Under the pieces are notes generated by a model. It had not been told where the DNA came from. It did not search any database and worked only from the letters and a program-made list of their open reading frames with translations. The position numbers and the translations under genes are program-made. 64,000 bases of DNA from Anthostomella pinea (taxonomy: Eukaryota > Ascomycota > Sordariomycetes > Xylariales > Xylariaceae): assembly GCA_963556695.1 (NCBI GenBank), contig CAUWAG010000008.1, forward strand, positions 744,001 through 808,000, given 5' to 3'. Positions 21,277-64,000 of the stretch are shown in pieces (the first letter of the stretch is position 1; every line of letters begins with the position of its first letter).

Positions 21277-22020
21277 ATGGCGCCCGACACCCAAAAACGC
21301 GAAATCCTCTCCTTCGCCGCATACCTCCTGGTCTCCAGCGGCGTCCTCCTCTACACGCTCCAGGGCCTCTACTCGGACCTGTATTCGCCCATGATCCGCG
21401 CCAGCCACCACCACGTCATCTTCGCCGCCCTGAACGTCGCGGCCCTGCACACGGCGCTGCTCGCCAGCGTGCCCTGCTGCATCGTGGTCGACCGCATGAA
21501 GCCGCGGCGGTCACTGCCGTTCCTCGGCGGCAGCGTCGCGTCGCTTGCGTACTTCGGTACGTATAGAAACATCCCCGTCCCAAGACCCTGAGCCTTGTGT
21601 TCAGGAACAAGCTTCGTTGTTCCCTTTCCGTCTTCATCTGAAATGGCAGTACGGGTCCAAAGACAAGATGTTAACATACACGCAGTACCTGTGGCATCCC
21701 GCGGCTTTCCGGATGGCAAAGATATTGTCATTGCGGCGCTGCCGTTCTTGGTGGGGTTTGTGCTGGAGTGTATGACTGGGAGGTTACATGTGATTGCGAA
21801 CCGCCTGGATGGAGTGCTACCTTATGTGCTGAAGTATGTGGCTGGGAGATTAAATGTGATCGCGGACCGCCTGGATGGGGGCACAGGGGCGGGGGGAGGG
21901 GGCATCAGGTGGATGGGGTGCTACCTTAGTAGCTTAATACTCATTTCGGCTTCCCAGGACGCAGGACGCAGGACGAGATTCCACGATCGCAGACTATCCA
22001 GCAGCTCGCCTTTCTGGTGA
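21277..22020 (+). CDS. Small multi-pass membrane protein containing an introner-like intron
   Basis: Unknown family. ATG 21277 (MAPDTQKREIL). Exon 1 21277-21556 and exon 2 21686-22020 join in phase 1 to give 204 residues. Three hydrophobic segments are visible: ILSFAAYLLVSSGVLLYTLQ, then HVIFAALNVAALHTALLASV, and after the splice DIVIAALPFLVGFVLE. The second exon contains a 22-codon in-frame tandem duplication (ECMTGRLHVIANRLDG / KYVAGRLNVIADRLDG). The last 40 residues look less protein-like (GGTGAGGGG, then Arg-rich), so the true 3' end may involve another intron or the gene may be decaying. Its only clear intron is one of three near-identical introns in this window. The splice is supported by the restored hydrophobic frame, not by transcripts. 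Confidence 0.6.
21557..21685 (+). mobile_element. Introner-like element, copy 1 (129-bp intron)
   Basis: An intron with donor GTACGTATAG and acceptor CACGCAG, located after the first base of a codon in the membrane-protein gene. It is homologous along its whole length to 63665-63794 (+) and to 58897-58734 (-). Shared landmarks are AAACATCCC, CAAGACCCTG, a hairpin here read GGAACAA-GCTTCG-TTGTTCC, a pyrimidine tract CCCTTTCCGTCTTCATC, GTACGGG, and GACAAGATGTTAACATACAC before the acceptor. TTAAC fits a branch site. It is about twice the length of ordinary introns here. Confidence 0.85.
21758..21880 (+). repeat. 66-bp coding tandem duplication
   Basis: A unit of 66 bp (22 codons) occurs twice: GTGCTGGAGTGTATGACTGG at 21760 and GTGCTGAAGTATGTGGCTGG at 21826, each followed by CCGCCTGGATGG. 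A partial third piece, GGATGGGGTGCTACCTTA, appears at about 21911. The frame is kept in the two main copies. Confidence 0.75.
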
Positions 22021-23643
22021 GCACGTCGTTCGGCACTGCTGTTACGAGGCCAGATTCCGTCGATACCGGAATTGGTCCGTCGTCTCCAAGAGCTAGTGCG
22101 GTATTATCACCTCTCTTTTCTGCCGACCAGCGGGCTCTACCTGGACCTGTTAGCTTGTCATTATCACAATATTCGACACCTGTAGCCAAGTCCCTGTACG
22201 AACAGAGTCAAGACTTTATTTTCTTTTCAACGCTTGTCAGTTGACGTCTCACCGGACTGGGCAGCGACAGTGGTATAGTGTGACGGCACAGAGATGGAGC
22301 ACTATACCACTACACTACAAAAGTAGAACGTTGTCAAGTCGAGCACTTGACCGTCTCCATCCACTTATATGTGCCACGGCAGATGGAACCGTGACATACA
22401 GATATCTTGTCGGCGTGACCCTCGAGCCCAGTACCTAAGACTCAGAGCATATCAGTCCCGTCTCATCGGTTCATGCGCATGTAATCGCTGCCACAGGCTG
22501 GTGGGATTGAAAAGCAACGACCTTCTGCGATTCGACAGCCGTTGGGTTGGTTGAAAGAGGGACGTTTTTGCCATCAGCAGTAGGAGACGCAGACGGGAAT
22601 AACCAGCCCACCCAGTGCCAGCTGCCAGCGCAGCGACTGAGCCCAGCCACAGTGGACTCCACTCGCACAATCAGCCCGCCCCAGCCACCGCCGCCCCACC
22701 AGCGCTGCACACATAAATTTGCGCGCACCTCGCGTTTCGCTTTGGACTTTTCTTTTTCCTTTCTTCTTCATCATCAGTTAGGAGTAAATCTACATCGTCA
22801 AATGTTCATTTATAACTTACCAATGGAGGCTCCGCTACGGCGGCTTGCTGAGGGTCATCCTTCTGTCTCGGCAGAATGATGGGTTTCCTTCCGTTCCCGG
22901 CCTCCTCCATCAAACCCCAAGAAGGCACCTTTCCATATCAGCCGCCGACGCCAGCTCCTCCTGGTTCGCGACTGTGGGGTGTCTCCTACATCACTAACAC
23001 CTGTTTGTATTCTTCCTGTAGTAGATTCAATCTTCATATCCCTCGTAGTTGGCATTGCAAGTGAACGCGGTCGACTGGGGACGCGGCTCGCTGAATGAGT
23101 GCTGCGTTTCCCTTCTCGTTACCAGTACCGTCATCGACGTGACGTGTGGCGCTCGCTCTGACAACAATGCGACTGGTAATTTCATGTACGAGATCTGCTA
23201 TTATGCTTTCAGGACTGGCAACCTGCGAGAACCGTCGTCGCGTACGCAGGTACGTCGCCATCGTCTACGGGATGGAACCAATTATGCGAAAAAATTTCAG
23301 CCTCGAAAGTAGCGTTCATTTGACCATGTGCTTTTTCTGAATATTGGTGCTCACTGCTTCACTTGTCCATGTGGGCTTTTGCGAGACCGAGGCAAATCCA
23401 TAGTAGCAGCCGTCGTGCACGATGTTTGGAATTCATATCTATTGTATATTGCACACGAGACTGATCGTTAACACATACTTCGGAGAATGAGCAGAACTTG
23501 TTCACGGGAGGTTCAGTGGAATTGACTATCTGGTTGCTGTGGCGTGCGATCTATCTGCCAACATCACCAGCTCTACATCCTCCAATGACCTGTGTGCAGC
23601 GTGACCTATGGGTGCGAGACTCGGGCAACCTGGAAGTACCCGT
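22021..23643. other. Intergenic region before the L10a gene
   Basis: About 1.6 kb with no convincing gene. An open frame at 22547-22879 is Pro/Gln-rich only because the DNA is CCA-rich, and others lack motifs. The 3' UTRs of the membrane-protein and L10a genes must lie at the two ends. Confidence 0.5.
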
Positions 23644-24487
23644 CTAGTAGAGGCGCTTGGGAGGGCTCATGGAAGCCTTGATGGTCAAGCTGCCAACGTT
23701 TTGCCAGCCCTTCTTCAGCAGCGAGACGAGGTAGTTGATGGCCAACATGATGTTACCAACAAGCTCCTCCGTGGTCATGCCGACGTTGCCAACAGCCTAG
23801 CAGTCCATGTTAGCAACCAGTGCTTCTGGCCAAGTCGGAGCTCGCCGTCACTCCCAAAAGCCAGAGCCGTAGAGACAAGACGCGACCCGCGGAAAGGGTA
23901 CGAGGGATACTTACAACACCCATGCAGAGAACCTTCTTCAGCTGGAACTTGATGGTGGACTTGACCTCGTTGAGTCTGCCAGTGAGGTCGTCGGCGTGGG
24001 AGACGGGCGTGGGGAACTTGCCGGCCTTGGACAGACCGGGACCGAGGAGACGAGGAATCTGCTTGATCAGAGTCTCGGAAGCGACGAAGGCGTCGTACTT
24101 GCGAGCAAGCTTCTTGATGAGCTTCTTGTTCTTGTTCAGCTTCTTCAAGTCGTCGACGGACATGGCATCGACGCCACCGTGCTTGGCTCGGTCGATATCG
24201 TGCTGGTCACCCAGAATGCAGACGCTCATGTTGGGGCGGGGAACCGAGGGGAGCTTGATGGTGCCCGAGAAACGCTTGTCACGCTGACTGTTAGGTACAT
24301 TGTCAGCATTTCTATCCGTGCCTCAGGGGAACGCGTGCAACGCAAGGCGGAAGCCATACGGGTCATAGTTCTTCAGGCCGATCTGGAGCTCGACGGTCTC
24401 GAGGAAGTTTCGCTTCTTAGTGTTGAGGGAGTAGTCGAGAAGCTCTCCGACGTTGTTACGCACTCCGGCGACCGTGATCTTCGACAT
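23644..24487 (-). CDS. RPL1: 60S ribosomal protein L10a (uL1)
   Basis: Large-subunit protein uL1, part of the mobile L1 stalk that helps deacylated tRNA leave the ribosome. ATG 24487 ([17 protein letters not shown]). Three exons, 24487-24360, 24287-23915 and 23796-23644, join in phase to give 217 residues, the exact family length. Family blocks are [88 protein letters not shown], and the C-terminal [20 protein letters not shown] ending in [11 protein letters not shown]. Introns lie early in the gene, as usual for ribosomal protein genes. Housekeeping gene of very high certainty. Confidence 0.98.
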
Positions 24488-26059
24488 GATGACAGTCTTC
24501 CAGTAGATAGCAATCTAATGGTGAGGATTCTTGCGTTTTTCGTTGCCGATGGGGGAGAAGAGAGGAAGAGGAGGGAGCGGATTTTGATGCGGTCAGATAA
24601 ACCAGGAGGGGCATTTTTGTGGCAATAACCGAGCAAAATTGTGGAGTGGGTCTACTGAGCCACGACACCTGCAACACCTACCTAGGTACCAGCCACATCT
24701 ATGGCTGAGTCATGGACACCAGCCACCTCCGAGTTCCGGATGATGAAACTCGTAGCTCCCGTCCAGATGCCACCTCACAGACGTCCTTGCAGTCACATCA
24801 TCCTCAGCCAGGCTGGCCCGCAGTCCCATCGTAAAGCCACGATTGGGGTTCTCGACTCTGGTATAGCCTCTACCTCAGATGCTGCAGCTCTGACGCAATC
24901 AATGAACAGCCAATCGCATCTTCACCAGGGAGACCGCCTCGAAACGCCGCCGTGACACCCGTCTAAGAACAAGCTCCGTGACCGGAATACTGACTGCCAC
25001 TTGCTTCTTTGAAAAGACTAAGCATTCCCTAATCACAGCACTCGTCGTACAGGTGGTCTGCCATCGCCCATGGGGTTACAGTCGTGTCATCGCCAATATG
25101 CCCGGAATGGTCTCCCACAATGTTACGACAGGTGTTGACAGCAATATGCCGACCAAATATGGGCTACTACAGCGTGATCACATGCATTCGAAGGGAATTT
25201 CTTTGTCCACACCGGCGATATCGAAGAGTACCGCGGAGCATGGCAAGGCCCTGGTCTCTGAAGCCCCCTATCGCCACTGGATCAAAGCGAAAGGAGTCTC
25301 TTACGGCCCTGACAAGATGCAGACCAGCTCAAGAGCCAGGAACCAGCTTCAGACACGGTGATGAGGATAGCGGCTGACTGGATGTAGCACCAAGCTTTCC
25401 AATCACTCGCTTGGGCCCTAGGACGTGGCCTGCTTCGCTCCATTGCATCTCCTACAAGTCTAGCGACCTTACCAAGCTGACATTTGCTCAGTGAGCTCTA
25501 TGTCATCATAGACACTCAGCCACATCCGTGACAGCCCAACAAACCAGTGGTCGAGGTGCCGGTATTCGCTGCTTGTGTTTCTGGGGTTTCATGTGCGTTC
25601 TTGATCTTCCCGGCAGTCTACCCGTGCAGATCGTCAGTCATCTCCGAGGAGCTTCCCCGTGTACCAAGCTTCGATACTAGGCCGGCATCTTATATCTCCT
25701 ACTCTGTCGCCATCCTTTGCGGGGATGCATAGTCTACCCAGCCTCAAACACACGCTTTATTCGCCGTCACATATTATTCCTGGGTTGCAAACCGTGTTCG
25801 AACCTGTCTAAATGAGGGAGATGCTGCTGTTGGGTATCCCACTTCGAAATCTCGCCACCGCTGCGGACGCCCAGGATGGTGGTTAAAAACCAAAAGAGGA
25901 CCTCATGTTCCCGGCTGTGCACCCTTTAAATCACGTCCCGTCATTATCTTCGATTGCTGTCTTCCTCGGGCGTGCTCTGGCCTCGCCTTCAAATTTCAAA
26001 CTCCTTGGTGACCTCTATATCTCGAGTTTCTCAACTTACGACAGCCGATCCGGCAAAGC
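24488..26059. other. Divergent promoter region, L10a / rhodopsin-domain gene
   Basis: About 1.6 kb between divergent genes. The open frame at 24978-25361 shows no motif and no splice partner. I see no RNA gene or clear repeat. Confidence 0.5.
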
Positions 26060-27612
26060 ATGCGTCTACCTCCGGCCGAAGTGCTCGCCACTTGGCCGAA
26101 GCCCAACTATACCGATCCAGTAACAAGAGGGCCGACGGGCAGAGTGATTGTATTGGTGCTGGCCACGATTGTCACGGCTATTCTAGTCATCCGGTTCTAC
26201 GCGCGAACACGGCTAACACGAGGGTTCGGGCTTGACGATACCCTCGTATCATTAGCTTATGTATGCTACCACCTACCAACCAAGAGCTTCCGCGTGCTAA
26301 TCAGGCCGACCAGGTTCCAGCCACCGCTTTTGCCATCACTGGCATCTTCGCGGAGGGTCAATTCCAATGGAACCGTCACATATGGGATGTGGAGTTCAAG
26401 TTCTTCAGCTCCAACTTACAAATAGGGTATGAGCATTCCACCACTTCTCTTCGCTGTGTGAACTTACTCATGAAAGCATAGGCTTGTGACTGCCATACTC
26501 TTCGACTTGGCGACGTGCTTGACCAAGCTATCCATGCTCGCTATGGTGTACCGCCTCGCGGCCGCCTCCAAGGATAAGAAGATGAAGAGGGCTGTTTCGA
26601 TAATTAGCTCCATCATTAGTATTAACAGCTTAGTCTTCATCGTCGTCGAGGTATTTCAATGCAGGTACGCACCACTCAGCCACCGCTCCAGGAGACCTAG
26701 GTTGATTATTTGCTAGGCCTGTGTCAGAATATTGGACAGCCTCGGCGGAACCACATTACTGTATTGATGAGGGTTCTCATATGGCCGTAGCCAACATCGT
26801 CAATACGTTGTCGGATTTTGTCGTGGTCTTGCTCCCAATGAAGATAGTCACAAACCTGGAGCTGCCAATCAAGCAACGCATCATTGTGATTGGTTTGTTT
26901 GGTATCGGGCTGGTCGCTAGCTGCGCAGGAATCGGCAGGACATTCTTCTGTTGGCACCTCTTTCACTCAGCCGATTACGACACGACCTGGGATACCTGGG
27001 TGGTATGGCTCACCAGCTCCATCGAGCTATACCTCGGCATAGTGAGTGCTCTGAAGAGCAGGCGATGATTTCGGTTCGAAGCAGGCCTGCTGGCTGACTA
27101 CGGTTTATTAGCTATGTTGCTCTATTCCGGCCACCAAGCCCTTCTTCACCTGCTTCCTGCCGGGCATTGTCGGTACCACGCTCAGATCGCGCAACTCGCT
27201 GGCCATGATCCCTTGGGATGACAAACCGCCGAACGAGCTTCCAATTCCCCGCAATACCTTCTCTATCCATGGCGAACCGGCATCAACCTCAAGCTCATCA
27301 TCGACTCGCCGACAGGAGATCGCGCATCTGGACAAGCCTCTGCCTCCGGCCAGGAAGCATTTCTCTTCGCTGACCGTTACATCCAGAGACTACGCAGCGG
27401 CGATGAGCATAGAAGAAGAGCCAAGATTCATCTGGAGCTATGCTGGAGATAGCCGGGCGTCTCGCCAGACCAGTCTCACCGGCGTTCGGTCCAATGATGC
27501 TCAGTCAAAGGGCCCTATGAGGCCAAGCGGATCTCTGCCGCCACCTTGCAACCGCACCACGACATTGTTCGTCAAGTACCAGCGAGATGACTCCAATTGC
27601 AGCACATTTTAG
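26060..27612 (+). CDS. Rhodopsin-domain (PTH11-like) integral membrane protein
   Basis: Member of the large fungal family of seven-helix 'rhodopsin domain' proteins related to the PTH11 receptor; roles in surface or nutrient sensing are known for a few only. ATG 26060 (MRLPPAEVLATWPKPNY). Five exons with four short introns (near 26262-26313, 26429-26481, 26665-26715, 27042-27110). Helices: VIVLVLATIVTAILVIRFYA, then the family motif RTRLTRGFGLDDTLV, VTAILFDLATCLTKLSMLAM with VYRLA, IISINSLVFIVVEVFQC, the CIDEG-type loop, ANIVNTLSDFVVVLLPMKIV, IIVIGLFGIGLVASCAGIGR, and a last helix around WLTSSIELYLGILCCSIPA and KPFF. The cytosolic tail of about 140 residues is Ser/Thr-rich. The first lumenal segment is short, without the CFEM domain of PTH11 itself. 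Length about 450 residues. Confidence 0.9.
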
Positions 27613-29598
27613 AGCAAGTTTCGGCGTGTGTTTCGTGGCGTGTTTGAATTCATTCTCTATATCACCACTTCGGCTTTCTTTTTACACTTCACGGCACACA
27701 GCCACATGGTCATTTAACAAACAGATTCCAGGGCATGAAAGGTGCAGGACTGTAGATAGAAGTCTTGAATCATACGTACACAGCCTGTCTTTCACGAACA
27801 TACCAGTGTATTTTCTCTAGGACCGTCTCCTATATTCGGGCTGTGTCACGAACCTGTTCTACCCTCCCTGCGATACCTCTTTCATTAGATACTCTATCAA
27901 TCAAATTCTCACTGTACATGTACAGCTTGTCGCCCTTACTCGCGCGCTCCTAGGGACCGGTATAAAGTGTGAACGCTGTCATCAAAGGGCATGGGTTTTG
28001 GCAGAATAGATACAACAGGTCCACCTGGCTGGTATATACAGGTCATACAGACGGACAAACAGCCAGCCAGCCGGCGCCGTGGAGCCAGCAGCTGAATTGC
28101 TTCGCAGGCTGGGCCATCAACTCAACTGATAAACCACAGGACCACATTGCAACGCAAAGAGGCGAATCCATGCCTTTGGATAGCGTCGGCGCATGCATCT
28201 TTAACTTGCGATTGATGGGAAACACATATATGCATATATCTATATTTATATATATATGAAGTGAATTACCAGCTATGTATCCTGACTTGCGTAGACGCAC
28301 GTATACGTAAGGTTGCTTGGTCCTTGTTCGTTGACCTAACGGTAGGTAACGGACTCATGGGCGATGCCTTCCAACCATCAAGTTCCTAGGCAGCCCGTTG
28401 GGATATCACGGTATCGAGTGAGCGGGAACTTACCGCATTGAATCACATGCATTTCGTCATGTATTGCCTGAGCAAGCTGGTACCGTCCGGCAATTTTCAA
28501 TCTCGTTTGGTACCTACTCATGCCGGGGACAAGAGCTTGATGAGGATATAAATGGCTTCTCCATGAAGTGTGGGCAGAGAAAACGCAGCATCACGAGCGA
28601 TGGCTGATGTTTAGTCCAAGCCGCAGCAACGGGGAGTGTGTGCGTTCCGTGTCCAGAATATGCGGATTACCGTCCCTGAGTATGAAGGATACACTACAGC
28701 ACGAGCGTAAAGCAGCCGGAGCTAAAAATGATCATCTTGACGGCTGTGCTCCGTGAGATGGGAAATGGCAGTCGAGTGTATGGGTGGCAATCCCATTACA
28801 AGCAGGTGGTAGACAAGGCAGTAGGTAAAGCGGCAGAGGCAGGGAGACAGGGAGGCAGGGAGGCAACAAGGGGGACGAAAAGATCGCGGCGTTCGCGCTC
28901 CGTGAAGCATTTAAACAAACTTCAAAACCCTAGCTATGCTAAAGTACCTAGATATCTGTTTCTTTCCTCTCAAATCCAAAATCTCAAAAGTGACAGCATA
29001 CGATAAAGCATCACATGATATATGCAGACTATAGTTCACCATAAGCACCGGCACCGACGACGACGTCGCCATGCGTAATCCTCCACACAAACACGCACGT
29101 CACAGTCACGGAGTCATCAACCGGCTGGCTGGCCGCTGGGGCACAGACAGGGCTGTGATACATTCGCCGCCTCAACATCTCGCGTCTTCCCCTGTGGCAC
29201 AGGACTGTGCCACGCGTATATCCATCTGGTCCTCGTCGTCGAGGGGCGGGAAGTCGCATACTGTAAGCTTCCTCGTCCCACATCGTTGGCATGGTCCGTA
29301 GGTTTCAAATCCGGGATGTTCTACATTGTAAACAACAGTTCCGGTGTTCCTGGGTCCAATGCCTGACTCGGCTCTGAGTATTGTGGGATTGTCTTCGACT
29401 TGTCCTCACGAAACCTGGCCGACACCTCCGACGCAGTCTCCTGACTGGCGGAAGTAGAAGTAGGTATGCACTTGCAAAATCCTGGGCCATTAGAAGTATC
29501 TTCCGGCTGCAGGTCTGGCTCTACTAAGCAAGTCGGAGTCAGTTGGGCTTCAAAAGGAGCAAGTTGCTTCATGGGGAGTTGTAACTCACGCTCTTCAT
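27613..29598. other. Intergenic region with AT microsatellite
   Basis: About 2 kb between convergent genes without a recognisable gene. It holds an AT-rich simple repeat (next entry) and a purine-rich stretch with GGCAGGGAG repeats near 28840-28865. Confidence 0.5.
28219..28258. repeat. AT-rich microsatellite
   Basis: Alternating (AT)n-like sequence with motifs CATATATGCATATATCTATA and TTTATATATATATG. Simple-sequence repeat in intergenic DNA. Confidence 0.75.
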
Positions 29599-32500
29599 TT
29601 AGCCAGAGTAATGTCGGTGCGAACGCCCATAAGCCTCCTGGGCAAGGGCTGGCTTCTTGGTCAGAAGCAGCTTCTTCGAGATCTTCCCCATGGCCTCCAT
29701 GTGATCCCTGGCCTCGGTCATGGTCTGGAGATAGTCAAAGGCGTCGGGGGTATTGTAGTCCTGGAGGTAGGACTGAAGCGCCTTTTGGTGTTGGTACCAT
29801 TCATCGATCATGGGCTGCTCTGCTGCCCTGGCAGCGGCAGCAGCGGCCTCAGCTGCCTGGGCAGACCGAGAAGCATGCTTGCGGGCGCTCGAGGAGCTGT
29901 CTGCGTCCTTGTTCTTCCGCTTTCGACCCTTGGTCGAGTGGGAAGATCCATGAGCGGATGGGGAGGATCCATGGAGAGAACTTCCATTGTCGTTGTGGAC
30001 ACGGCGCATATGATCCCTCAGGTTCCATTGTCGTGGGAATCCATTTCCCATGACGGCACGATCACATCCCTCGTAGGTGCAGAGGTATGGCTTGTCTCCG
30101 TGGCCGTGCATTGCATGGGCCTCCCGCTCGTGTCGGAGGAGGCAGGCAGTAGAGGAAAAGCGAGCATTCTCACAAGCCTCGGCCTTGCACCGGTATGGCT
30201 TCAGGTGCGAGTCCACAAATTTGCTGTGGTACGCTGGTTAGATGGAGACGACAGTGAAGACCTGCGTTTCACTTACTCGTAGTTGCACTTGAGCTTCTCG
30301 GGCTTGTGGTTGCAGCTGGAATCGCCCTCCCACGGGCAGTGGAACAACCCATCGGTCTTGGGATACGCGTTCTTGTACAGCGGGTGGTCCCGGGCAGTGG
30401 ACTCGTTGTCGCCACCGGGGCGTCGCGTGAAGGATGGAGGCAGGGCAAACATGTCATCTGAGAGGACGAGTCCGTTGTGGTCCTCTGCGCTCATCATTTC
30501 CATCTTGCGGCTGATAGGTTCGCCTACGTCAGAAGGAGGCTCGAGGATATGGCAGATTTCAGTCGTTACATACCTTGGTGACATCCCGTTCATGACTGGG
30601 GACGAGTCATTAGTGTGTGTAGGCGACGCATCCATGGGGACAGCAGCAAGCGACCATGCATCATCGTGGACGCCAGGAGACGACATCCTGGATTCAACCG
30701 GGCTGAGCGAGCCCCATGAGGTAGTGGGTGAATTACCTGCCATGTTCGCTTCGAAGCTTAGCTGCATTTGTGCAGGGTCAACATGCTGGTGCGTCATGCC
30801 TGGCGCAAGAACAGCGGGAGAGTATGAGATTCCGTCCGTGGGCAGTCCGACACTCATGGGGAGTGCGGGATAGTACATCTTAGATGACACGGAGTGGACA
30901 TCAGAAGAATCCGGAAGTAGATATGCGTCCATCTGTGGGTTACCTGCCATGTCAAAATGGGACATGTGAGAGCCCTGCGACACAGAAGGCATCATCCGAG
31001 GACGGCTCTTCTGTGACGAGGTCTTGACAGATCTGTTCCTGTGGCTTCCTGCAGAGCTTCGCGAGCTGGCGCGACGCATGGGCTCTGCCGCGGATGGCAG
31101 TCCATGCTCGGTGGCAATCCATTTGCTGGTCATCTCATCCATGGCATCATTCTGGTCCTGTCCTGTGGGTGTGATCTGGCCATAAGAAAAACCGAAGTCA
31201 TCCTCTCCATGGAAGTTCTGTGCACCTTCTGCTGATGTGTCCCATACTGAACCATTCAGGTCCGCATGTGCTGTTTGAGAATAAAGAAAAGGTCCGCTGG
31301 CATTGGCAATCATGTTTCCCTGGGAATATGTGCTGTATTCACTGGGGTTGAGGTTAGTGTACTGTTTTCCACTACCCAGTGGGTAAAAGTGATACGCCGA
31401 AGAAATCAGGTACAAAGGAAATCGCTCCAGTGTGGTACAACTTTGTTCCTATTGATCAAAAGTCTTGTTAGTCCACGGTTCATCTATCAGGTGTACGAGG
31501 GGGCTGATGAGCACAAACCGAACTGAAGCATATTTTGCGACACCCGTTGGAACATAGGTGTCCAAAAACAGTCCAACGAGACAGCATCCAAGCTGATCAA
31601 TGGACCGTATGACCACATGTACATCCCAGGGCTTGGGCCGAGTACGAGGACAAAGGAAATATCCTGGTGTAGAAGCCTGGGTCTGTCCAGGAAACCATGA
31701 CTGCGGGAGCCCTACATCGGTGGTCATCAGGCACCGAGCGAGAAAATAAACACCAAGGCGAATGATCTCGGTGTAAGCCGCGTGCGTTCTGAGGCCAAGA
31801 AACGCGATTGTCGTGAGCATATCTGGGTCAACTGAGAGGTCCGTCCATTGGGATGTAGCTAATTGATTCAGGGAGCAGTGAACAGAAACGCTTCGTCAGT
31901 TCCGAATGTCCAGAAAGTGTAAAGCAATGTCCACGGAAAAAAGCTGCTAGTCACTGACGATTTGTCGTCGTTCTTCCCAAGTGCGGACGCACGCAAGAGG
32001 TCTGGATCCTGTTGGTCTCACATGCTGAAGGGTTACCCCACAACAACCGTGAAAGCTATGCAAAAGCAAATACAGCGGCGAGGTGGGAAACACCACTCAT
32101 GGCATTCCGGAGGTGTTGATGTAGTGTAACGGGCTACTGCCTGTGACAAGAAAAATCCGCGCGTCGCTGAAATAAAGAAATCCGGTAGTCCATGTGAAGG
32201 TGCGATAGAAAGCAAATCCTAGGGCCCATGGCAAGCCGAGCTTGAAATCCGCGAAAGCAATTGTCCTCTGGAAATTCCTGGGTTCATTCCTCTCTCCTCG
32301 AGTTCTGTTGTCACGGTTTGTTGCGGGCGATACTCACCACATATTGCAAGGCGCAATTCTGAAATTTCATCTGTGAATCCATCTGAGGTGGGTTTGTCAA
32401 CAAGGCCGTGAAGCCGAGTCGCTCGCTACTAAGAGACGAGCCTCAGAAATTGAGCCGGGAAGAATTGAGTCCTTTGGATTGTCCTGATGTCATGATGTCC

Positions 32501-32799
32501 TGTCCATATGGGTATTTCCTGGGCTGCATATCCTGGTTTGTCCTGTTCATGTCCTGTGTCCTGAAAATGAAGTTCCGGATAAAAAAATGCGTTCAGAGCA
32601 AAGCAAACCGACCCATAGCACTTGCGAGGGTTCCTGGAAACAGAAAGAAAAGCATACATGACAGACGGCAACATGATTGTGGTGGTCGAAGCCCGAAAAG
32701 AACAAATCACTCAGAACTCCGGCGGGAAATAGGAATCAAAGCAAAATACCTCGCGGGTGTGTGGACGCCGTCCATATCTAGAGTGTTGAAAGCTGCCAT
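29599..32799 (-). CDS. C2H2 zinc-finger transcription factor
   Basis: Nuclear DNA-binding protein with two or three C2H2-type fingers near the C-terminus: a first Cys pair FHCPWEGDSSCNHKPEKL, then KPYRCKAEACENARFSSTAC with LLRHEREAH, then KPYLCTYEGCDRAVMGNGFP with LRDHMRRVH. A basic stretch KGRKRKNKD and an Ala-rich helix follow. The large middle exon (31341 to 30279) encodes a Ser/Pro/Met-rich activation-type region. An intron at about 30278-30215 joins KCNYD to KFVDSHLKPYRC. I propose a 50-base first exon, 32799-32750 (MAAFNTLDMDGVHTPA), spliced in phase 2 to 31341 (SEYSTYSQGN) over a 1.4-kb intron. The alternative is a start within the middle exon, such as MIANASGPF. The finger region is certain and the 5' structure is inferred. 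The large upstream region suggests complex regulation. Confidence 0.8.
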
Positions 32800-37128: not shown

Positions 37129-37204
37129 ATTCGTTGTCCGTGACGGTCTCGACTCTCAGCTAGCTTGGGCATGGAAGAGATGGCAATACACGGGTCGGTG
37201 ATTC

Positions 37205-37250
37205 CTCTCTCTCTCTCTCTCTCTCTCTATTTCTCTCTCTCCATCTGCCT
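37205..37250 (+). repeat. (CT)n microsatellite
   Basis: About a dozen CT units, a short TATTT interruption, then five more CT units. It lies about 80 bases upstream of the Zn2Cys6 gene start (minus strand), so on the sense strand it is a GA-rich promoter tract that could affect transcription. Confidence 0.9.
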
Positions 37251-49983: not shown

Positions 49984-50916
49984 GATCTTCGTAGTCACAA
50001 GCGATGCATTCCCAGGGTGTGGCGATGTCTCATTACCTTGGCGGTAGAAAGTGCGGACTTGTAGGATGGATGGCGTGCAAAATGGATCGCGACAAACCCT
50101 CAGAGCTTTCAGGTCAATGGTGCTGGTGAAAGATATGGATGCTGAGGCGGTGGTGCTTATTAAGAAGTACTGTTGCCATGAAACGACTATCTACTAGGTG
50201 ATGATGGCATTCGGGTGGCTCATACGATCGGGGCTCAGGATATCTTCTATCACCCACCGAACTTGAGCGGCTGTTGCCTCGTGACCCCTTTCCATCTCCA
50301 CGATAAATGGGAGGCACCTCAGGGTAGTAGGTCTATACCACGTATTGGTACGGCAGTACGCGTCCAGCCTTCACGTATCTATGTGTAGATGAAGTTTTAA
50401 GTCACATAACACGGCAAATATTGAACATAGGGTGTAGACACAAATCTAGTTTATATATCTATCTACCCACGTAGCGGCGCAGCAGGTCTATTCTTATGCA
50501 AGTGGGCTCGCAGATGAATAGAAGAAGGGAATCGACCAAAACCCAAAACGCTCCCAATGCAGTAGATGCTGAATCGCCATGTCTGATAACTCCTAAACCA
50601 GGCCATCGCCTGCTGCCCTGAGGAGGGTCTTCAAGTGCCGGAATATGCGATGGAATTGCAGATTAACCTTTGACCTGCCCTGTATCCTCTTTCCGCAGAT
50701 GGGCAAGAATTCACAGAAGAGCTCTCCCTCTACCTGTAGTCGAAGATGATCGTAGTCAAGGGAATTCGTCAGAGACCCGTGAGAGACCGGTTTGGTCTGT
50801 AAGTCGGGAATCCATGTTGTTATCGAAGACAGTCTGCCGGAAACTGAAACTCGACATTGTTCGCCGCCATTAGATATTATGCCCACCATATCATGGCACC
50901 CAGTGCTATGCCTAAC
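49984..50916. other. Short intergenic region
   Basis: About 0.9 kb holding the promoter of the F-box gene and the 3' flank of the WD40 gene. Nothing else is seen. Confidence 0.5.
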
Positions 50917-55605: not shown

Positions 55606-55675
55606 TACTGCCGTTCTCAATCAGAGTGTCAGTGGCCCACCTTGAATCGCTGTGCACACCACAGACTTTTGAAAC

Positions 55676-56285
55676 GGGCTTTTTAAGATAACAAGCCGTA
55701 TTATAGCCATTTTAAGAGATATAAAAAGTTAATATATATAAAACAAATGATTTTCAAAAAAGACTTCGGTAAAAATAACATAATAAATTATATAAGTATT
55801 GTAACTAGGTTATTAAATATATATTGTCAAATGTTGGATCCCAGATATGGTGCCCTTAGGTGCAGTACCCACTAGGGGCTGTCAAGGGAACAGTGGATCC
55901 ATCCTGGCATAGTGCAGTATGGTATTTAGCTGTAGATTAGCCCTGCCGAGTATACTTAAGAATGACAACAACACTTGCAGCGACCGCTTACACCCTCAAG
56001 GCTTGTGACCCTTCTAAAATCTCATATATATATATATATGTTTTTATAATCTTATTTTAAAACTACAATAGCTTAAACTAAGTATAAAATTATTTTTTAT
56101 TTTTATTTTTAACCCGTTTCAACAACCGGACTTATCTCATATTCTAATTTACGAACATGGCCTATATTGGCTAATTTATTAATTCTTATTCTTATTGCGG
56201 TAATTTTACCCCTTTATTACCGCTTTATTACCTTCTTACCTCGGCATTTAAATTTAATCCGATAAAAATACGGTATTTAAAGTTG
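55676..56285. other. AT-rich (RIP-like) island
   Basis: Base composition drops sharply to AT-rich with many TA dinucleotides, unlike the rest of the window, with a GC-normal inset at about 55835-55990. This is the usual look of repeat DNA mutated by RIP in Pezizomycotina. Confidence 0.7.
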
Positions 56286-56623
56286 CAACTACCATCCCAA
56301 CGTTGTGGATCCCAGCCACTGGATCTGCTGGATTAAAGGTACGCCTAGAGGGCACCTTAACAGTTAGACAACGGAACCTAGTTGTTCCGTCCCGATCCAG
56401 CCCCCTCTGGCAAAAAGCTGCCACAGTCGCACAGGGACACTTCAAGGACACAGAATACACACATACACTTCAACCTCACGATTGGCTCAAATCTAACAGG
56501 ATCCAGCCACCAGTACCTTATCGGATCTCCTGTCATCCAGGGCGTTCTACGATAAGGTTACCTGGGATGGCTGCCCCAGGTGACAGGAACCAACCCACTG
56601 TAATTTAGGTATTTATATACTTC

Positions 56624-56648
56624 TCGGATGGGATCCCTTCCCATCCGA
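56624..56648. repeat. Perfect 10-bp palindrome
   Basis: TCGGATGGGA and TCCCATCCGA flank a 5-base centre. It lies inside the degraded element and could be an internal hairpin of it. Confidence 0.8.
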
Positions 56649-56736
56649 ACGTAACCAAGCACCAACCAGAATACAGATCATCCCAACCGAAACTTGTGAT
56701 AGATCTATGTTCTGGTTCCGCTACTACAAAGGCACA

Positions 56737-56821
56737 ACGTCGTGCATATCATTCCATACCATCTTTAAATAGCTAAAAGCTAAGGCTATATAGAGATGGT
56801 ATGAAATAACATGTGCGACGT
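56737..56821. repeat. Imperfect 36-bp inverted repeat (hairpin)
   Basis: The left arm ACGTCGTGCATATCATTCCA plus TACCATCTTTAAATAGC pairs with the right arm ending GATGGTATGAAATAACATGT plus GCGACGT. Most mismatches are C/T or A/G transitions. It lies near the right end of the inverted-repeat element and may be a nested MITE. Confidence 0.65.
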
Positions 56822-56943
56822 AAGAATAGAAGCGCGACCGTAGAAAACGTACTTTTGTCGCCTTCGTCAACCAAGTCAAAAAGTCTATGGAGTACACAGC
56901 GATTCAAGGTGGGCCACTGACACTCTGATTGAGAACGGCAGTA

Positions 56944-57531
56944 CCACAAGTCAGTCCCCTGAATGAGTGCCAAAGTCCCCGTTATGTAAGTCCGAAAAAC
57001 TGAAGGGAAACTATGAACTTGCCATCCATAGCTCCCACCGCTCCACAAGCCTACCTCGCCCTGTCTAGTAGCGTCGCATACTCGTCGACATCTTGCTCCG
57101 AGACAGTATAGCCGATCGCCCGGCGACATGGAACAGGTCGTCTTTCGTGACACCCCATGCTGAGGTGCTCTGTTTCCCTTGGGTAATGTGTCAGCAGAAG
57201 ACCTTTCTGTCGCTTCCAGATCTTGGGGATTTCTATCTAGGTCGTTATTGAGGTAGACGAACCTACGAGCTCGGTTGTTTGGATCATATGACGACGAGTA
57301 TATAGCAACGGCGCCGGTGGCAGGAGTGGTCGAGGCACGAGGTTCGCGGTCCGCCTTTGTGATCGGCGTCCTCCGGCCCCTCGGCCTGCTTCCGACGGCA
57401 GCCATATCAGCTTTCCGATCTCGCCGTGGCCTAGACTCCCGAGTTCTCTCACTCGCTCGGTCGCAAAGCTTTGATCTGGGAAACTTCACGTTGGTACTTT
57501 GTCGACTGTGTTTCGTCAAAGCTTCAAGCAT
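56944..57531 (-). CDS. Possible hypothetical protein truncated by the transposon relic
   Basis: An ATG at 57531 (MLEALTKHSRQSTNVKFP) opens a minus-strand frame of 252 codons that runs into the right inverted repeat of the element, so its last 57 codons are element sequence. The N-terminal part is basic (SERTRESRPRRDRK, RPRGRRTPITKADREPR) and then less biased (YDPNNRARRFVYLNNDLDRN). There is no known domain. It may be a gene whose 3' part was displaced by insertion, or a chance frame. Confidence 0.25.
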
Positions 57532-57680
57532 CAGACTGTATCAAGCTCATCCTTGTGGGTTGGATCTTAGTTATATGATTTCGATTATGCTTTCCTCAGT
57601 GAGGGGAGATTGTCTCATTACATCGTCCAACTGATACTACATTATTTCTTACAGCCGTTGACCGTGAGTCGGCTGCCCAG

Positions 57681-59272
57681 TCACCCAATTACACAACTTG
57701 ACCGTGAAGATGGTTTGGCGTGTGCAGCTTCCATAGGGTGCAAGAACATTGCCTTCTCTGGTTTAGCTTCCTCGTCCAGCTTGTCCTGATTATGGGACTC
57801 GAAGACCTGGCTCACTGCACGCTGAACACCGAGGACGTCCAAGAGCTTATATACAGCAGTTGGCCCCCCGTGGTCCACACAGTTCGCGACTTTGCCTAAA
57901 AGGTCATGAAACTCGTCCGCGTCGAAATCGACACACACCTCGGTGATCCTTGCCGTGACGTGAATCCAAGCGGCGACGAGCTCTGGCTCGAGCGACCCTT
58001 GCATATGCCGGAATTCGACTGTGTTGAGCTGGCTCTTGCGAACCTTTCCCCAAAACTCTGATTGCGGCGGCAAATGCTCCGTCACAGCGATGGCCGCCTT
58101 GCGCGACCGGTCGCTCTCACCCACGAGCTTGGCAAGGTCCTCGACTGTCTCTGCGCGCCAGAGCCATGGCACCTTCGCTTTGCCGTTGTGAAGAGCCTGT
58201 GAAACGAATGGCGGCACATTGCGCTCCATTTCGTCCCTCCATGGCGCTGCGTGGGCGTCATCCTCGTCGACCCAACTTGGTAGCATGTCTGTCTTGTCCA
58301 TTGCCATGTTTGTGCGCTTCTGCAGTGGCGCTGCGTACTTGATAGCTTCCTGCTTCCATGTTGCATGGAGATCGAGAAGCTTCGCCTCTGCCACCCACAG
58401 CAGCGTGAGCAGGCGCTTGAGATTGTGCAGTGGCAGAGGCAGCCCGCGGATCCCCCAATAGATGTGGACAGAGCACCGGCTGGAGTCCTTGACGGAGGTA
58501 ATCCCCGTGTTAACGCTAAGCCTATAATTGGCACGGAGAACGCGGCAGGTACGTTCGAGATGCGCCTCGGCGCGTTGTCTTTCTTGCCACAGGTAGGCTT
58601 TGCTGACTACCTCGAAGCCGAGCCAGAAATAACCCTCCTGTGCTGCTGGTCGAACCAACATACGACGTCCGTCGACCAGAGGATCTGTCCAGATCATTGT
58701 CTCCTCTGGGATGACTGTCGTGTTTTCGTATGCCTGCGTGTACGTTAACATCGTGTAGGTTGACATCGTGTAGGTTGACATCGTGTTCTTAACCCTGTAC
58801 AGACAATCTCTATATGAAGGAGGAAAGGGAACAACAAAGCTTGTTCTCGAATACAAGGCCTGGCCAGGGTCTTGGGATGGGATGTTTATATACGTACCGT
58901 ATAGCGATAACCCCGGAAGGGGCCTAGCTTGACGTCGTCGGCCGGCTGGCCTTCCACCTCGTCGGCGCTTGGGTGGCCCTTCTCGCGGTACTCTGCATAC
59001 ATCCCGGCTTCGGTCAGCTTCTGGGCAATGATGCCACCGAAGTGGTGCAGTCTCCTCATATGGAGTTCGTGATCCGACCCGGTCTTGTTTATGTCTGGGG
59101 GCTCTTCGAGGATTGGCTGCGTACATTGAGTGCCGTCTCCTCCCTCCCAGGGGGTCTTGGTGCCGAATTCCTTGAAGAGAGCAAGGAATTCGAGCTCAAA
59201 CCCGAAGGTTGCCTTGCCGCGAAAGGACTCTTTAGGCGCTTGGTCCACAGCGTCTGATTGTCCAATTGCCAT
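57681..59272 (-). CDS. Putative amidoligase-family protein with introner-like intron
   Basis: Resembles the amidoligase (ATP-grasp/COOH-NH2 ligase related) proteins found sporadically in fungi, proposed to form amide bonds on peptides or other small molecules; no biochemical role is known for the fungal members. ATG 59272 (MAIGQSDAVDQAPKES). Exon 1 59272-58898 and exon 2 58733-57681 join in phase 0 to give 475 residues. Family-like features are the opening strand TFGFELEFLALF, an HHFGGIIAQKL helix, a central NTGITSVKDSSRCSVHIYWG block with conserved His, the helix LKRLLTLLWVAEAKLLDLHA, and the late NTVEFRHMQGSLEPELVAAW motif with Glu, Arg and His as likely catalytic or ligand residues. The first exon's last codons GYRYT join AYENTTVIPEE. 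Its sole intron is introner-like copy 2. Family call is by motif memory, not by search. Confidence 0.75.
58734..58897 (-). mobile_element. Introner-like element, copy 2 (164-bp intron with triplicated 15-mer)
   Basis: On the minus strand it starts GTACGTATATAAACATCCCA and ends ACACGCAG, matching the introns at 21557-21685 and 63665-63794 along their whole length, including CCAAGACCCTG, TTCGAGAACAAGCTTTGTTG, the CCCTTTCC tract and CTGTACAGGG. It is longer because the unit ACACGATGTCAACCT (15 bp) near the 3' end occurs three times (last copy ACACGATGTTAACGT), multiplying the putative branch-site sequence. Phase 0 insertion in the amidoligase gene. Confidence 0.88.
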
Positions 59273-61643
59273 ATTGATAAGAAATGTACGAAATGTCAAG
59301 AGCAGGTCGTCAGTTTGTGTTGCTGCGTGTTGTTCTAGGAGAGATACCCGGCTCCAGAGCCAGGCTCGCCATCGCATTTAAATCAAATAGTCCCTTGTAG
59401 GCCGCCCGACGAATACGACCAACATCCTCGGCCAGATATCCAAGTGAATGCATCTAACCGTGGCGGGAGCTGCGTTTGCCGCAGTCGTGGGATTGAGATC
59501 GGTCAAGAAGAGCGGCCGGGAGGCCCTGCAAATGCCAGTAAGTAGTCTCCAGACTGATGGCCGACGTCCAGCTAGTATAGGTAGCGCATTGGCGGCTTTG
59601 TGAGAACAGGTAGTGGTGGGTATGTGGCTGGCACCCCTGGAGAAGAGCAGATACCATCAAGAGTCGACCTTTCCATAGCAGACCGACATTTGCACAATTC
59701 GTCATCATACGGCACAGCCGATGCACGCGTGGTCATCTTAAGGCGAACCACATTGTGACTCTGGCTGGCTGTTGGTGGTCAGACAACTGGGGACGGCGAA
59801 TTACACGACCTATGCGGCCCAACATCGTAGCACATGTTGGAAAGTAGTTGGGTGAGGCTCAAGACCTGTCCGGCCTATCAGAGCCTCCGGAACGTCTGCA
59901 ACATATAGGCCGGTTTCGAATAGTTCGACGCCATGCGCAGTTCAGCCGCGAAGTTTGTTCGTACCTACGTCCAGTGTGGTGACGGCCAGGGGCTGGATGG
60001 CCGAGAAGAAATTGTTAACAATGCGAGAAGGAGACCTCAGCCAACACCTCGACAAAGGAACTCGGGCTTTGCCAGTCTTGCAGAGTAGCGTGCTGCGGTA
60101 AGCCGACTCGGATCCTTGATCGGCGCGCACGATCCTTCACAGATTCCCGGACCGTGTGGCGCTTCCTCATGGTGTTCTCGTAATTAACTCATATTTCACG
60201 GTCAACGGTGCAACAGGAAGCTTCGCCCATCACATGGCATGCACCGTGCAGATGTCAGATACCAGCCCTTGGACCCTGTAAAATTAGGAGTACTCGAAGC
60301 GATATCAACTGCCCCCGAGGCTTCAACAAACACGGTACCCATGCAAATTGCTATACCCAACCTGCAGTAAGCCACGAGATACGGCAGCTGGGGATCGCAG
60401 CCTTCGAATCCCTGTGGAAGGAGTCTGGAGCGAGCCAATTGCGTAGCTGACGCCGACCGCGACGCGCAGGGCTCGAGCATATTGACTGACTGGCTGTCTC
60501 ATTGGATCTGAACAACGGACGCGCGACAACTGATCGAATCTGATTGTCAAGGAAAACTCGAGGCACCTCCTGGTAATGTAGTATCAACCGGCTGCGTCCG
60601 CGCCATGGCACCATAGCGACCGCCCGGTTGCTTGCCGGTTGGTATAGAGAGGCCCAACGGCGCGAACCTGTTTCTCGGTAGGTACACAGTAGGTAGTTGG
60701 TAGACACTGACGTGAGACGGGATTGGGGCGGAAGCGAGCTGCTCGTCCAACACCCGTGTTGGCTGCAACAGACGCAAGGTCATCAATGGTCGATCTCGCA
60801 ACGCAACCCCCGATGGAGATGATGTCTGCCAGGAGAGGGAAAGCCGGCTCAAGGCCGTCAGGATGAACACCCCTCGACTCTGTAGGCGGCTCTCGTGGCC
60901 GTGTGGGAAAAGTGTCGTATGACCGACCCCAGGGATCGCCAATGAGCCAAGCCAGCCTGTCAATCGGTCGGGAAGGTTCAAGGGATTCCTGCCAACGACT
61001 CAACCGGCCGGGAAGGGATTCCTGCCTGCCGGTTATGATCCATGACCATTGACTCCAAATGGAGGAACAGCTCAAAGTAGCTGATGTAGGCGACAACAAA
61101 AGTCGGGATGCTACAGAACCATTCCAGAATGGCTGCGGCAGTGATCCAGTCACAGTCTCGACAAACGGCGGCTGGCCATGCATGTGGTGGCGAGCCCCAG
61201 ACACACCATGTCACACATGTCTGCATCAATCAATGCATGCGCAATATCGCGCGCGCGTTTGCCGGATCGCTCGGGTCGGGTCTGGACTGTCGTGGAATAT
61301 GCCTTTCCCAATGGTGGGAGCCCGGGCCGTTGCCCTGGAACCGTGGAAACACCGCTGAGGGAGGGAACAAGGTTATTCCAAGCCCCGATGCAGGTGGTCG
61401 TTGCCCGTAAGGTTGCCCGTTGACCGGTTTCCATTCCGCGTGCAGGTTGGGTGCACCCGTGACAATGACCAATTGACAATCCCTGGCCGACCTGATCGAG
61501 GCTCACCTTCCTCTCGAACAACACCCGCCGCAGCTTCCGTTGCAGCTTCCATTGCAGCTTCCGTCGCAGCGCAAGGACTGAACCTGAAATCACGGAAACG
61601 ATCGGAGACAGTCCCGTCGGAGAGACTCGGAGACACCTGCACG
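59273..61643. other. Divergent intergenic region
   Basis: About 2.4 kb between the amidoligase gene and the four-helix membrane-protein gene. Overlapping open frames at 60.5-61.6 kb on both strands have no motif or splice logic. A short direct duplication with GGGAAGGGATTCCTGCC-like sequence lies near 60975-61025. A GCAGCTTCCRTT repeat lies at about 61531-61568. Confidence 0.5.
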
Positions 61644-62123
61644 ATGGCCCCGCGGCAGACCGTCCTCCCGCTCGCCTACCGGCTCTTCTTCCTCATCATC
61701 GAGCCCATCTCGGCCCTCGTCGGCGCCTACTACGCCCACTTCCAGCAAGATGCGTACCTGAGCATGACCACACACGCCGCGGCAGTCGTCCCATCGCCGG
61801 CCACCTCAATCATCATGTCCCAGTTGGCGAATCTGTACCTGCTCTTCGCGCTGAACGAAGCCTTGGTTCTGCGCTGCACCGGCGACCTCACGATCTGGAA
61901 GACTGTACTTTTCGGGCTGCTCATCGCTGACGTCGGACACGTGTATTCGGTCAGCAGCCTCGGTGCCTGGGTCTACTACGACGCCACGCGATGGAATGCC
62001 ATCGATTGGGGCAATGTGCCGTTCGTGTATCTGGGCGCCTCGATGAGGATCGCCTTCCTCTGTGGAGTTGGCCTGGGAGGACAAGGACAGGCTAATAATA
62101 CCAAGACGCGGAAGGCGGCTTGA
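61644..62123 (+). CDS. Four-helix membrane protein, DUF7704-like
   Basis: Small integral membrane protein of a widespread fungal family of unknown function. ATG 61644 (MAPRQTVLPLAYRLFFLI), no intron, 159 residues. Helices: LAYRLFFLIIEPISALVGAY, IMSQLANLYLLFALNEALVL, KTVLFGLLIADVGHVYSVSS and VPFVYLGASMRIAFLCGVGL. The motifs YRLFF.IEP..A..GAYYA, LNEA and AD.GH are typical as I remember the family. The tail is short and basic (KTRKAA). The frame is open upstream through an Ala-rich repeat but the ATG at 61644 begins the conserved part. Confidence 0.8.
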   Translation: MAPRQTVLPLAYRLFFLIIEPISALVGAYYAHFQQDAYLSMTTHAAAVVPSPATSIIMSQLANLYLLFALNEALVLRCTGDLTIWKTVLFGLLIADVGHVYSVSSLGAWVYYDATRWNAIDWGNVPFVYLGASMRIAFLCGVGLGGQGQANNTKTRKAA

Positions 62124-63083
62124 TCAACCCGTACAACCCGTGGTAGCACGCAGGTTACCGTAGCTCCCGGATACCGTGCGTCAAGATCTATAACTGCCGG
62201 TCAGCCGGTGGTCACGACTCACCGGGTGGCCTATGAAGCTTTCACTAGGGAGGCCGCTCACAGCTTGAGATCCCATCAGCGATGCTTCTACCAAGGCACG
62301 GCGACATATGGGCCGAAGAGACGAGACAAGCTCCACCGCAAGGTAATTAGTGAGCCGATGCGACAGCACACGTTCTAGGAGGCTTGGCGCCGGCGCAAGT
62401 GATATAAGAAGCATAGGAGGATGATGGGATGAAATACGAAGCGTTTGTAGGTGGCTAGCACGAAGGAACCGAAGCATACGTATAGCATGTTCAAGGCACT
62501 CGCAAATGCATATCAGCTTCTAGCAATCCCATGAGCGACACAAGCCGAGCCCAATCCGAGCTCAATCCTTTGATTGGGAACATTGGCATGACCATGTCGG
62601 CGTCTCCTGCCCAAGCCGCTACTTGACTGGTGGAATTTTCGGCGCGGCCCATCGGATAACCACGACTCACTCCGCTATCCTGACCAATGTCGGGCCCTCG
62701 CATAAGCCGAACATTCCTCGCTACGTTGCGGCGACGGTGGGACCGATCATCTACGGCACGGTGACGTGAGGATCTCGCCGGTGGCGGGCGCTCGCCTGAT
62801 TCGCCTTGTTGACGCCCTAAGGATAAAATCGTGAGAATTAGGAACAGCGCAACCCCTCCAAGCGGCAGGATTCTGCAGCGGGCGAGGTGGGGGGTAAAGG
62901 TAGGAGAGGTAGGGGTTTGTATGACGGGTTGCGATGCGATGACTACCTCGGTATATTATCTGCCTAGCCCCTCCATGGCCTTCGGATGACACGAAGCTCG
63001 TACCCGTGTCACTGTTTCCTTCCTCATTTCATCGGAATCGTATCTGTCACTTCGATACGCTCCCCAAGACAATCCCGCCCAAG
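62124..63083. other. Intergenic region / promoter of the alcohol dehydrogenase gene
   Basis: About 1 kb with no supported gene. The last 80 bases are the C/T-rich leader before the ATG at 63084. Confidence 0.55.
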
Positions 63084-64000
63084 ATGTCCAAATACGACCA
63101 ATACGAAGGCTTCCAGGTCGAGTCGCCCGAGACCTGGACCGAGTTCCACAAGAACAAGTTTGACGTGAAGCCGTTTGGCGATCACGACGTCGAGATCAAA
63201 ATCGAGTGCTGCGGCGTCTGCTCGAGCGACATCCACACCATCAACGGCGGCTGGGGCGAGCAGAAATTCCCGCTGGCCGTCGGCCACGAGATCGTCGGCA
63301 AGGCGCTGCGCGTCGGGCCCAAGGTCACCCTTGTCAAGGAAGGCGAGCGCGTCGGCCTCGGCGCCCAGTGCTGGTCCTGCCTCGAGTGCCGCCAGTGCAA
63401 GAACGACAACGAGACGTACTGCACCCAGCAGGTCGACACCTACGGCCAGGCGTGGCCCGATACGGGCATCGTGACGCAGGGCGGCTACTCCTCGCACGTG
63501 AGGGCCCACGAGCACTGGTGAGCATCATAGCCTTCACCATGAGCAATTGGAACCCATCGTGACTGACTGGGCCCTACAGGGTCTTCCCCATCCCTGACGC
63601 AATACCGAGTCATCTCGCAGCACCAATGCTATGTGCTGGCATTACAAGCTACAGCCCACTGGTGGTACGTATAGAAACATCCCGTCACAAGACCCTGGGC
63701 CTTGGATTCGAGAACAAGCTTTGTTCTTCCCTTTCCTTCTTCATCTAGAAGCTGGCTGTACGGGTTTAAAGACAAGATGTTAACATACAAGCAGAGAAAC
63801 GGTGCCGGCCCGGGGAAGAAGGTCGGCATCGTCGGTCTGGGCGGCCTCGGCCATTTCGGCGTGCTGTTCGCCAAGGCGCTGGGGGCCGAGACGTGGGTGA
63901 TCTCGCGCTCGCACAGCAAGGAGGCCGACGCCAGGAAGATGGGCGCGGACGGGTACCTGGCATCGCAGGACCCGGACTGGAACAAGGAGCACGCCATGAC
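63084..64000 (+). CDS. NADP-dependent zinc alcohol dehydrogenase (3' truncated)
   Basis: Medium-chain dehydrogenase of the ADH6/cinnamyl-alcohol type, reducing aldehydes with NADPH in the cytosol. ATG 63084 (MSKYDQYEGFQVESPET). Exons 63084-63517 and 63580-63664, then 63795 to the window edge, join in phase. Seen are the catalytic zinc site CCGVCSSDIHT with GHEIVG, the structural zinc lobe CWSCLECRQCKNDNETYC (four Cys), the MLCAGITSYSPL motif leading into the NAD(P) domain, and the Rossmann glycines VGIVGLGGLGHFGVLFAKAL followed by VISRSHSK, where Ser-Arg-Ser after the second strand suits NADP preference. The second intron is introner-like copy 3. The C-terminal third lies outside the window. 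Confidence 0.95.
63665..63794 (+). mobile_element. Introner-like element, copy 3 (130-bp intron)
   Basis: Phase-0 intron in the alcohol dehydrogenase gene, between SPLV and RNGAGPG. It begins GTACGTATAGAAACATCCCG and ends GATGTTAACATACAAGCAG. Along its length it matches the introns at 21557-21685 and 58897-58734. The hairpin reads AGAACAA-GCT-TTGTTCT, perfectly paired despite sequence change relative to copy 1. The gene's other intron (63518-63579) is ordinary and unrelated. Confidence 0.88.

Follow-up and report, generated by a model that had tools for sequence, protein, structure and literature searches.

A family of introners in Anthostomella pinea that is probably related to [D1,2] stwintrons

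Introduction

The origin of new spliceosomal introns is still an open question, and the introners of ascomycetes are the class for which the transposon model does not hold. The closest described systems come from Hypoxylaceae and Xylariaceae, families of the same fungal order as Anthostomella pinea, in which Fekete et al. (PMC8469720, PMC9024468, PMC12403724) reported sister stwintrons together with cropped canonical introns. Here we describe a family of introner-like introns of ∼130 nt in A. pinea, three copies of which (I1, I2, and I3) lie in a stretch of 64,000 nucleotides (contig CAUWAG010000008.1, positions 744,001 to 808,000; hereafter the window). As in the Fekete systems, the A. pinea genome holds [D1,2] stwintrons (20 in number, alike in build to the published ones) together with probable canonical derivatives, and no target-site duplication (TSD) accompanies them. 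The 5'-NTIRE-10 element GUAUAAAAAC lies at nt 5-14, as in the Fekete stwintrons, and the palindrome-like TCTAGAAA is common to the A. pinea family and these systems.

The canonical family of A. pinea is ∼130 nt long with >100 copies, whereas the canonical introns of Fekete et al. are 93 nt long with 10 copies; it has another 3' half, without the full 3'-NTIRE-10, and it shows a strong bias for the exon trinucleotide RYG (purine, pyrimidine, G), of which the Fekete papers report none. The 3' counterpart of the element in our family, GTTAACRTAC, pairs only partly with the 5' element. These papers themselves describe a complementary NTIRE-10 pair for only part of the stwintrons.

Two further systems are relevant. 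The introner-like elements of Dothideomycetes (Fulvia fulva, Dothistroma septosporum, and Zymoseptoria tritici; Collemare et al. 2015, PMC4457414) belong to another fungal class, and we liken them to the A. pinea family by their description and not by sequence comparison. In both, canonical introns of near-identical sequence occur in large numbers in unrelated genes, with seamless insertion, a predicted fold, and decay with age; however, an AG/GY preference is attributed to the Dothideomycete elements in PMC8469720, while the A. pinea family has RYG instead. The transposon-type introners of Gozashti et al. (2022, PMC9860276) are likewise repeated introns enriched in genes but, unlike them, the A. 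pinea family has neither a TSD nor a borrowed splice site. In the open-licence literature, no paper on Anthostomella introns was found by title or abstract, and the accessible part of the 14-taxon table in PMC12403724 does not name A. pinea. An earlier note on this DNA, made from the sequence alone, had recognized an introner-like family with reference to Dothideomycetes; the host is in fact a member of the Xylariaceae, and stwintron-related introners had already been described in Xylariales.

Results

Size of the family

The genome searched consists of 16 contigs with 53,736,082 bases (the genome paper gives 19 contigs and 53,727,737 bases). With I3 as the query, all 40 of the matches scored from 91 candidates belonged to the family at 84-100% identity, which excludes chance; the I2 query likewise gave 40 matches scored from 81 candidates. 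Pattern searches allowing ≤3 mismatches returned 143 matches with the 5'-end pattern (control 5), 90 with that of the 3' end (control 1), and 65 with an internal 25-mer (control 0), so that about six chance matches have to be allowed for. At least 115 distinct places carry one or more of these three signatures and at least 83 carry two or more. The count excludes 21 stwintron places and is a lower bound, the 5' pattern contributing 100 of its 143 places. Where the earlier note had suggested possibly hundreds of copies, somewhat over one hundred were found, as a minimum. Three copies in 64 kb represent a local excess over the genome-wide density of about one per 470 kb.

Among 82 family matches in the fetched loci, 75 canonical copies were fully analyzed. 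Those left out are the stwintrons L088, L089, L096, and L061, a copy with an internal deletion (L118), a divergent copy (L120), and one for which no acceptor was found (L099). For 11 copies (L009, L016, L019, L030, L031, L079, L093, L095, L097, L112, and L116), the end was placed manually at an acceptor close by. All 75 introns are distinct, as are all 75 upstream flanks, and the host proteins belong to different families. Two of these are presumably a glutathione peroxidase (L092) and an ATP synthase beta subunit (L093), to judge by their motifs. Many introns that resemble each other over their full length in unrelated genes are what characterizes introners, and that is what the 75 copies are.

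Location in coding sequence

The best coding frames upstream and downstream of each copy, called separately, agree after removal of the intron in 63 of 69 copies, where 23 would be expected; six of the 75 copies with <100 nt of flank were left out of this comparison. The coding score is higher in the sense than in the antisense orientation in 57 of the 69. Of 50 copies with long flanks, 47 have a positive sense-frame coding score through the junction and three (L003, L016, and L034) a negative one. Among the first 20 of these 50, a Pfam domain extends across the junction in 12 cases, and for 10 of the 12, L003 among them, the match exceeds the curated cut-off; a further copy has a Pfam match that does not span the junction and seven have no match. 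Unspliced read-through would be possible in just 2 of the 60 copies that could be phased, and phases 0, 1, and 2 are represented by 29, 16, and 15 copies. The central claim of the earlier note, an introner-like family in unrelated genes, holds. Splicing of the copies is predicted from their splice signals and from frame continuity.

No TSD of 3-6 nt was detected in the 75 copies at offsets of -8 to +8 as compared to re-paired flanks. No k-mer matched in more than a few copies at any offset, and the largest 3-mer excess was 6 of 75 versus 2.0 expected, among 289 offset pairs. Insertion with a TSD or a borrowed splice site was rejected on this basis, both splice sites lying inside the element.

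Preference for RYG

The exon bases immediately 5' of the introners are strongly biased, position -3 being a purine in 60 of 75 copies, -2 a pyrimidine in 62, and -1 a G in 58; A is never found at -1 (0/75). The bias for G at -1 is the strongest at any single position. At -2, A is rare (7/75, 15.2 expected) and pyrimidines are enriched (62 versus 37.9 expected). The complete RYG trinucleotide precedes 38 of the 75 copies, as compared to 5.8 expected from their own flanks (p = 1e-22), and a mere effect of local composition was rejected on this ground. An effect of phase was rejected as well, with RYG at about half of the sites in every phase (15/29, 8/16, and 8/15 for phases 0, 1, and 2).

Ordinary introns predicted in the window and the fetched loci served as a control. 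This set is small, with 0, 11, and 14 members under three settings and with 1 and 0 decoys in the last. Its 14 members measure 51-80 nt, which partly checks the 46-70 bp that the earlier note had given for ordinary introns. RYG precedes 2 of the 14 (p = 0.017 versus introners; p = 0.056 with the 11-member set), a comparison limited by the small sample. The 25 copies nearest the consensus have RYG in 16 cases and the other 50 in 22, a difference that is not significant (p = 0.14).

The stwintrons of A. pinea differ in this respect, being preceded by T in 14 of 20 cases (4.1 expected) and followed by a purine in 18 of 20 (10.3 expected). In the work of Fekete et al., no exon bias is reported for Hypoxylon and none for 288 stwintrons of 14 taxa. 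The RYG bias in A. pinea as against this published lack may reflect either a species difference or an effect of pooling.

RYG describes exactly the trinucleotides that are able to pair with CGU if wobble pairs are counted, and the donor of the 130-nt family has a near-invariant CGU at positions 4-6. By analogy with the exon-binding sites of group II introns, the lineage might pick its target by sequence, through intron-exon pairing at insertion, although we hold this to be a rather remote prospect. Pairing received no support from a second CRU (CRT) element near the 3' end, the R of which does not covary with the -2 base: copies with A in the element have 6 C and 6 T at -2, and copies with G have 17 C and 21 T.

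Related stwintrons in the same genome

Four of the pattern matches turned out to be 154-nt [D1,2] stwintrons. A genome search with a stwintron query gave 20 candidates, all 20 of which match at 83-100% identity. Identity among them averages 90% and reaches 97.4-99.3% in the six closest pairs. Their layout suggests an internal intron nested in the external donor, and frame scoring prefers removal in two steps in 18 of the 20, although 14 of the 20 have just 36-70 nt of flank; in 5 of the 6 with long flanks the preference is decisive, L090 being the exception. The 5' element of these stwintrons, GTATAAAAAC, is identical to the 5'-NTIRE-10 already published. When the introner consensus was aligned to that of the stwintrons, the score of the 5' half was reached by 0 of 1000 shuffles. 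Kinship of the two sets at the 5' end is supported by this alignment, and the 130-nt family is probably an older canonical offshoot of the stwintron lineage, a direction of descent that we infer. Descent through loss of the internal splice sites would be plausible.

The earlier note had suggested that the family is active or recently active. This is not borne out for the 130-nt introns, with a mean pairwise identity of 81% and a best pair of 96%. Recent activity appears better supported for the stwintrons, since their mean is 90% and their best pair reaches 99.3%. Both the stwintron relatives and the insertion-site motif are additions to what the earlier note had read from the window.

A single stwintron-like intron, L096:180-349 (G000:C2:4357479-4357648), shares just its 5' end with the family. 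At the sensitivity of our search it has no relative in the genome, and it is perhaps an old lineage.

Anatomy and predicted fold

In the 130-nt family, a length of exactly 130 nt is found in 43 of the 75 copies, GTACGT starts 69, and the ends are CAG in 71, TAG in 2, and AAG in 2. Median identity to the consensus is 89%, and similarity among the copies spans the whole intron and ends at its borders. By eye, the consensus has no internal acceptor followed by a donor, and a stwintron layout was rejected for the 130-nt copies. Imperfect inverted repeats occur near both ends of the consensus (GTACGT and AACATCC versus GGATGTT and ACGTAC); they begin at the 5' end, stop 6 nt before the 3' end, and are fully kept in 43 of 75 copies. 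A fold that joins the two ends of the consensus is possible, with terminal helices of 6 and 7 bp and a 3' tail of 6 nt. Against base shuffles, the folding z-score is -2.2 for the consensus and -3.7, -2.0, and -3.4 for three individual copies; L100 was omitted from the folding test.

The three copies in the window

The three introns lie at the exon borders given for them in the earlier note (Table 1), with the borders GTACGTATA...GCAG in all three. The near-identity that it had put at 80-85% by eye is real, with blastn within the window giving a somewhat wider range: 87% for I1/I3 (E 9e-39), 83% for I2/I3 (E 7e-34), and 78% for I1/I2 (E 5e-23). The extra length of I2 is accounted for by a 4-nt insertion and by tandem 15-nt units at its 3' end. 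No fourth full-length copy was found in the window by blastn, which beyond I1-I3 gave just matches of 15-23 nt.

That removal restores the frame of three different proteins, as the earlier note had claimed, is supported at each junction. Without I3, the gene encodes an alcohol dehydrogenase whose alignment with the yeast enzyme 1piw (E 9.5e-63) runs through the junction gap-free, as it does in all 119 homologues that cover this point among the 120 compared, the best of 861; the homologues listed include no A. pinea protein. Without I2, the product is identical to the depositors' 475-aa protein P0001, and 11 aligned Xylariales proteins show no gap at this junction. Without I1, the product matches the depositors' protein P0154 identically through the junction; further downstream the P0154 model diverges from our own, and P0154 was the only match in a homology search with the I1 protein. 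The depositors' gene models thus join two of the three window genes (I1 and I2) exactly at the introner borders. These models are probably predictions rather than RNA evidence, because the annotation was made by GenSAS with Augustus, GeneMark, and homology; neither "RNA-seq" nor "intron" was found in the main text of the genome paper.

In exon 2 of the I1 gene, a 54-nt unit is repeated after 66 nt with 85% likeness (21759-21878), and it is right at this repeat that the P0154 model departs from ours.

Table 1 Position and surroundings of the introner copies in the window
Feature	Position	Strand	Remarks
I1	21557..21685	+	129 nt, phase 1; gene for a small predicted membrane protein
I2	58734..58897	-	164 nt, phase 0; amidoligase-like gene, PF12224 in several homologues
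I3	63665..63794	+	130 nt, phase 0; zinc alcohol dehydrogenase (ADH6-like) gene
Probable branch point of I1 (TTAAC)	21671..21675	+	Conserved in the family alignment
Probable branch point of I3 (TTAAC)	63780..63784	+	Conserved in the family alignment
Three tandem 15-nt units of the CGATGTCAACCTACA type	58739..58783	-	Lengthen the 3' end of I2
Exon trinucleotide ahead of I1	21554..21556	+	TCG, not RYG
Exon trinucleotide ahead of I2	58898..58900	-	ACG, fits RYG
Exon trinucleotide ahead of I3	63662..63664	+	GTG, fits RYG

Discussion

The copies form one family, and in our assessment there is a good probability that they are spliceosomal introners, canonical U2-type introns of ∼130 nt, that spread as complete introns within coding exons, likely via RNA. 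The constant borders, the location in the sense strand of coding sequence, and the lack of a duplication favor insertion of the intron RNA or of a copy of it. The starting RNA would be a spliced-out intron with ends able to fold together. It would re-enter the coding strand of transcribed genes, preferably after RYG. Reverse splicing would be one way and capture in the course of break repair another; both fit the data. Once copied into DNA, the inserted intron would be spliced from the start and leave the host protein unchanged. Both the RNA route and the cause of the RYG bias are what we infer from these patterns. The copies are most likely RNA-propagated introners related to sister stwintrons, and so of a known kind, with a new family and a new target preference.

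Several observations weigh against this interpretation. Frames disagree in 6 of the 69 copies, and the antisense coding score equals or exceeds the sense score in 12 of 69, although the score is a weak measure, since these 12 include I1 and others in recognizable genes. The relation to the stwintrons does not extend significantly to the 3' half, where 115 of 1000 shuffles reach the score, and among the stwintrons themselves L090 clearly and L134 marginally favor keeping an extra G. With respect to the fold, no conserved RNA structure was found by RNAalifold (-0.84 versus -0.19, standard deviation 0.55, for column-shuffled controls), the terminal helix shows no compensatory changes in the family alignment, all six terminal pairs are kept in just 43 of 75 copies, and folding energy does not correlate with identity to the consensus. 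The end-to-end fold may belong to the mobile form alone, or it may be a by-product.

An alternative that we regard as unlikely is that intron RNA or its DNA copy was captured at random double-strand breaks, as proposed by Fekete et al. for Hypoxylon, and that later selection for splicing produced RYG. Seamless insertion without duplication is what such capture would give. A G before the donor helps U1 pairing, which further favors A at -2 and, at -3, either C or A. The strongest bias in our family, G at -1 (58/75), agrees with this pairing, and selection for splicing may add to the RYG bias. As its full cause it is disfavored, because the depletion of A and the enrichment of pyrimidines at -2 are not what U1 pairing favors. 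The RYG bias weighs against capture at random breaks, as do, within their limits, the 2 of 14 ordinary introns that follow RYG (p = 0.017, small sample) and the 16 of 25 copies nearest the consensus versus 22 of 50 others (not significant, p = 0.14).

It is more doubtful still that the family is a non-autonomous DNA transposon of the sort proposed for most introners outside the ascomycetes, which generates a TSD on insertion and takes one splice site from it. The imperfect inverted repeats near the ends of the consensus would suit a transposon, and its insertion is sequence-biased, as the targets of transposases often are. However, no duplication was found at any offset tested and both splice sites are within the element. 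In addition, with 14,734 genes and an assumed 1.5 kb of coding sequence each, coding sequence makes up ∼41% of the genome, and random insertion should leave many copies between genes, whereas frames are continuous in 63 of 69. Finally, the chance that these are ordinary introns made alike by gene duplication or convergence is negligible: host proteins of different families, 75 distinct introns behind 75 distinct upstream flanks, and similarity that covers the full intron and stops at its borders all argue against it, and we found no point in its favor.

A. pinea offers what appears to be a young set of 20 stwintrons beside an older, about five-fold larger canonical set with a common 5' half, and it is a usable system for asking how introns arise. 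Its target preference can be measured, and every model of insertion has to account for it. If RYG is a preference of insertion, it would argue against random-break capture and make insertion open to a laboratory assay.

Other features of the window

No Rfam family is matched in the window at gathering score. ARAGORN calls a tRNA-Asn at 17048-17139 (-) that is probably spurious, because its anticodon, ATT, is odd for a eukaryote and there is no Rfam match at this position. Two pairs of repeats, 49 and 26 nt long and 82% and 88% alike, connect 5091-5225 with 18812-18952; their equal spacing of 13.7 kb suggests a diverged duplicated stretch. A repeat of ∼241 bp at 56496-56736, probably a mobile element, has at least 39 other copies in the genome at 92-98% identity (40 scored of 559 candidates). 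The stretch that holds it is flanked by 65-nt inverted repeats (55606-55670 and 56879-56943), the arms of which occur at no other place in the genome in the same repeat search; they lie 1.2 kb apart and are 95% complementary.

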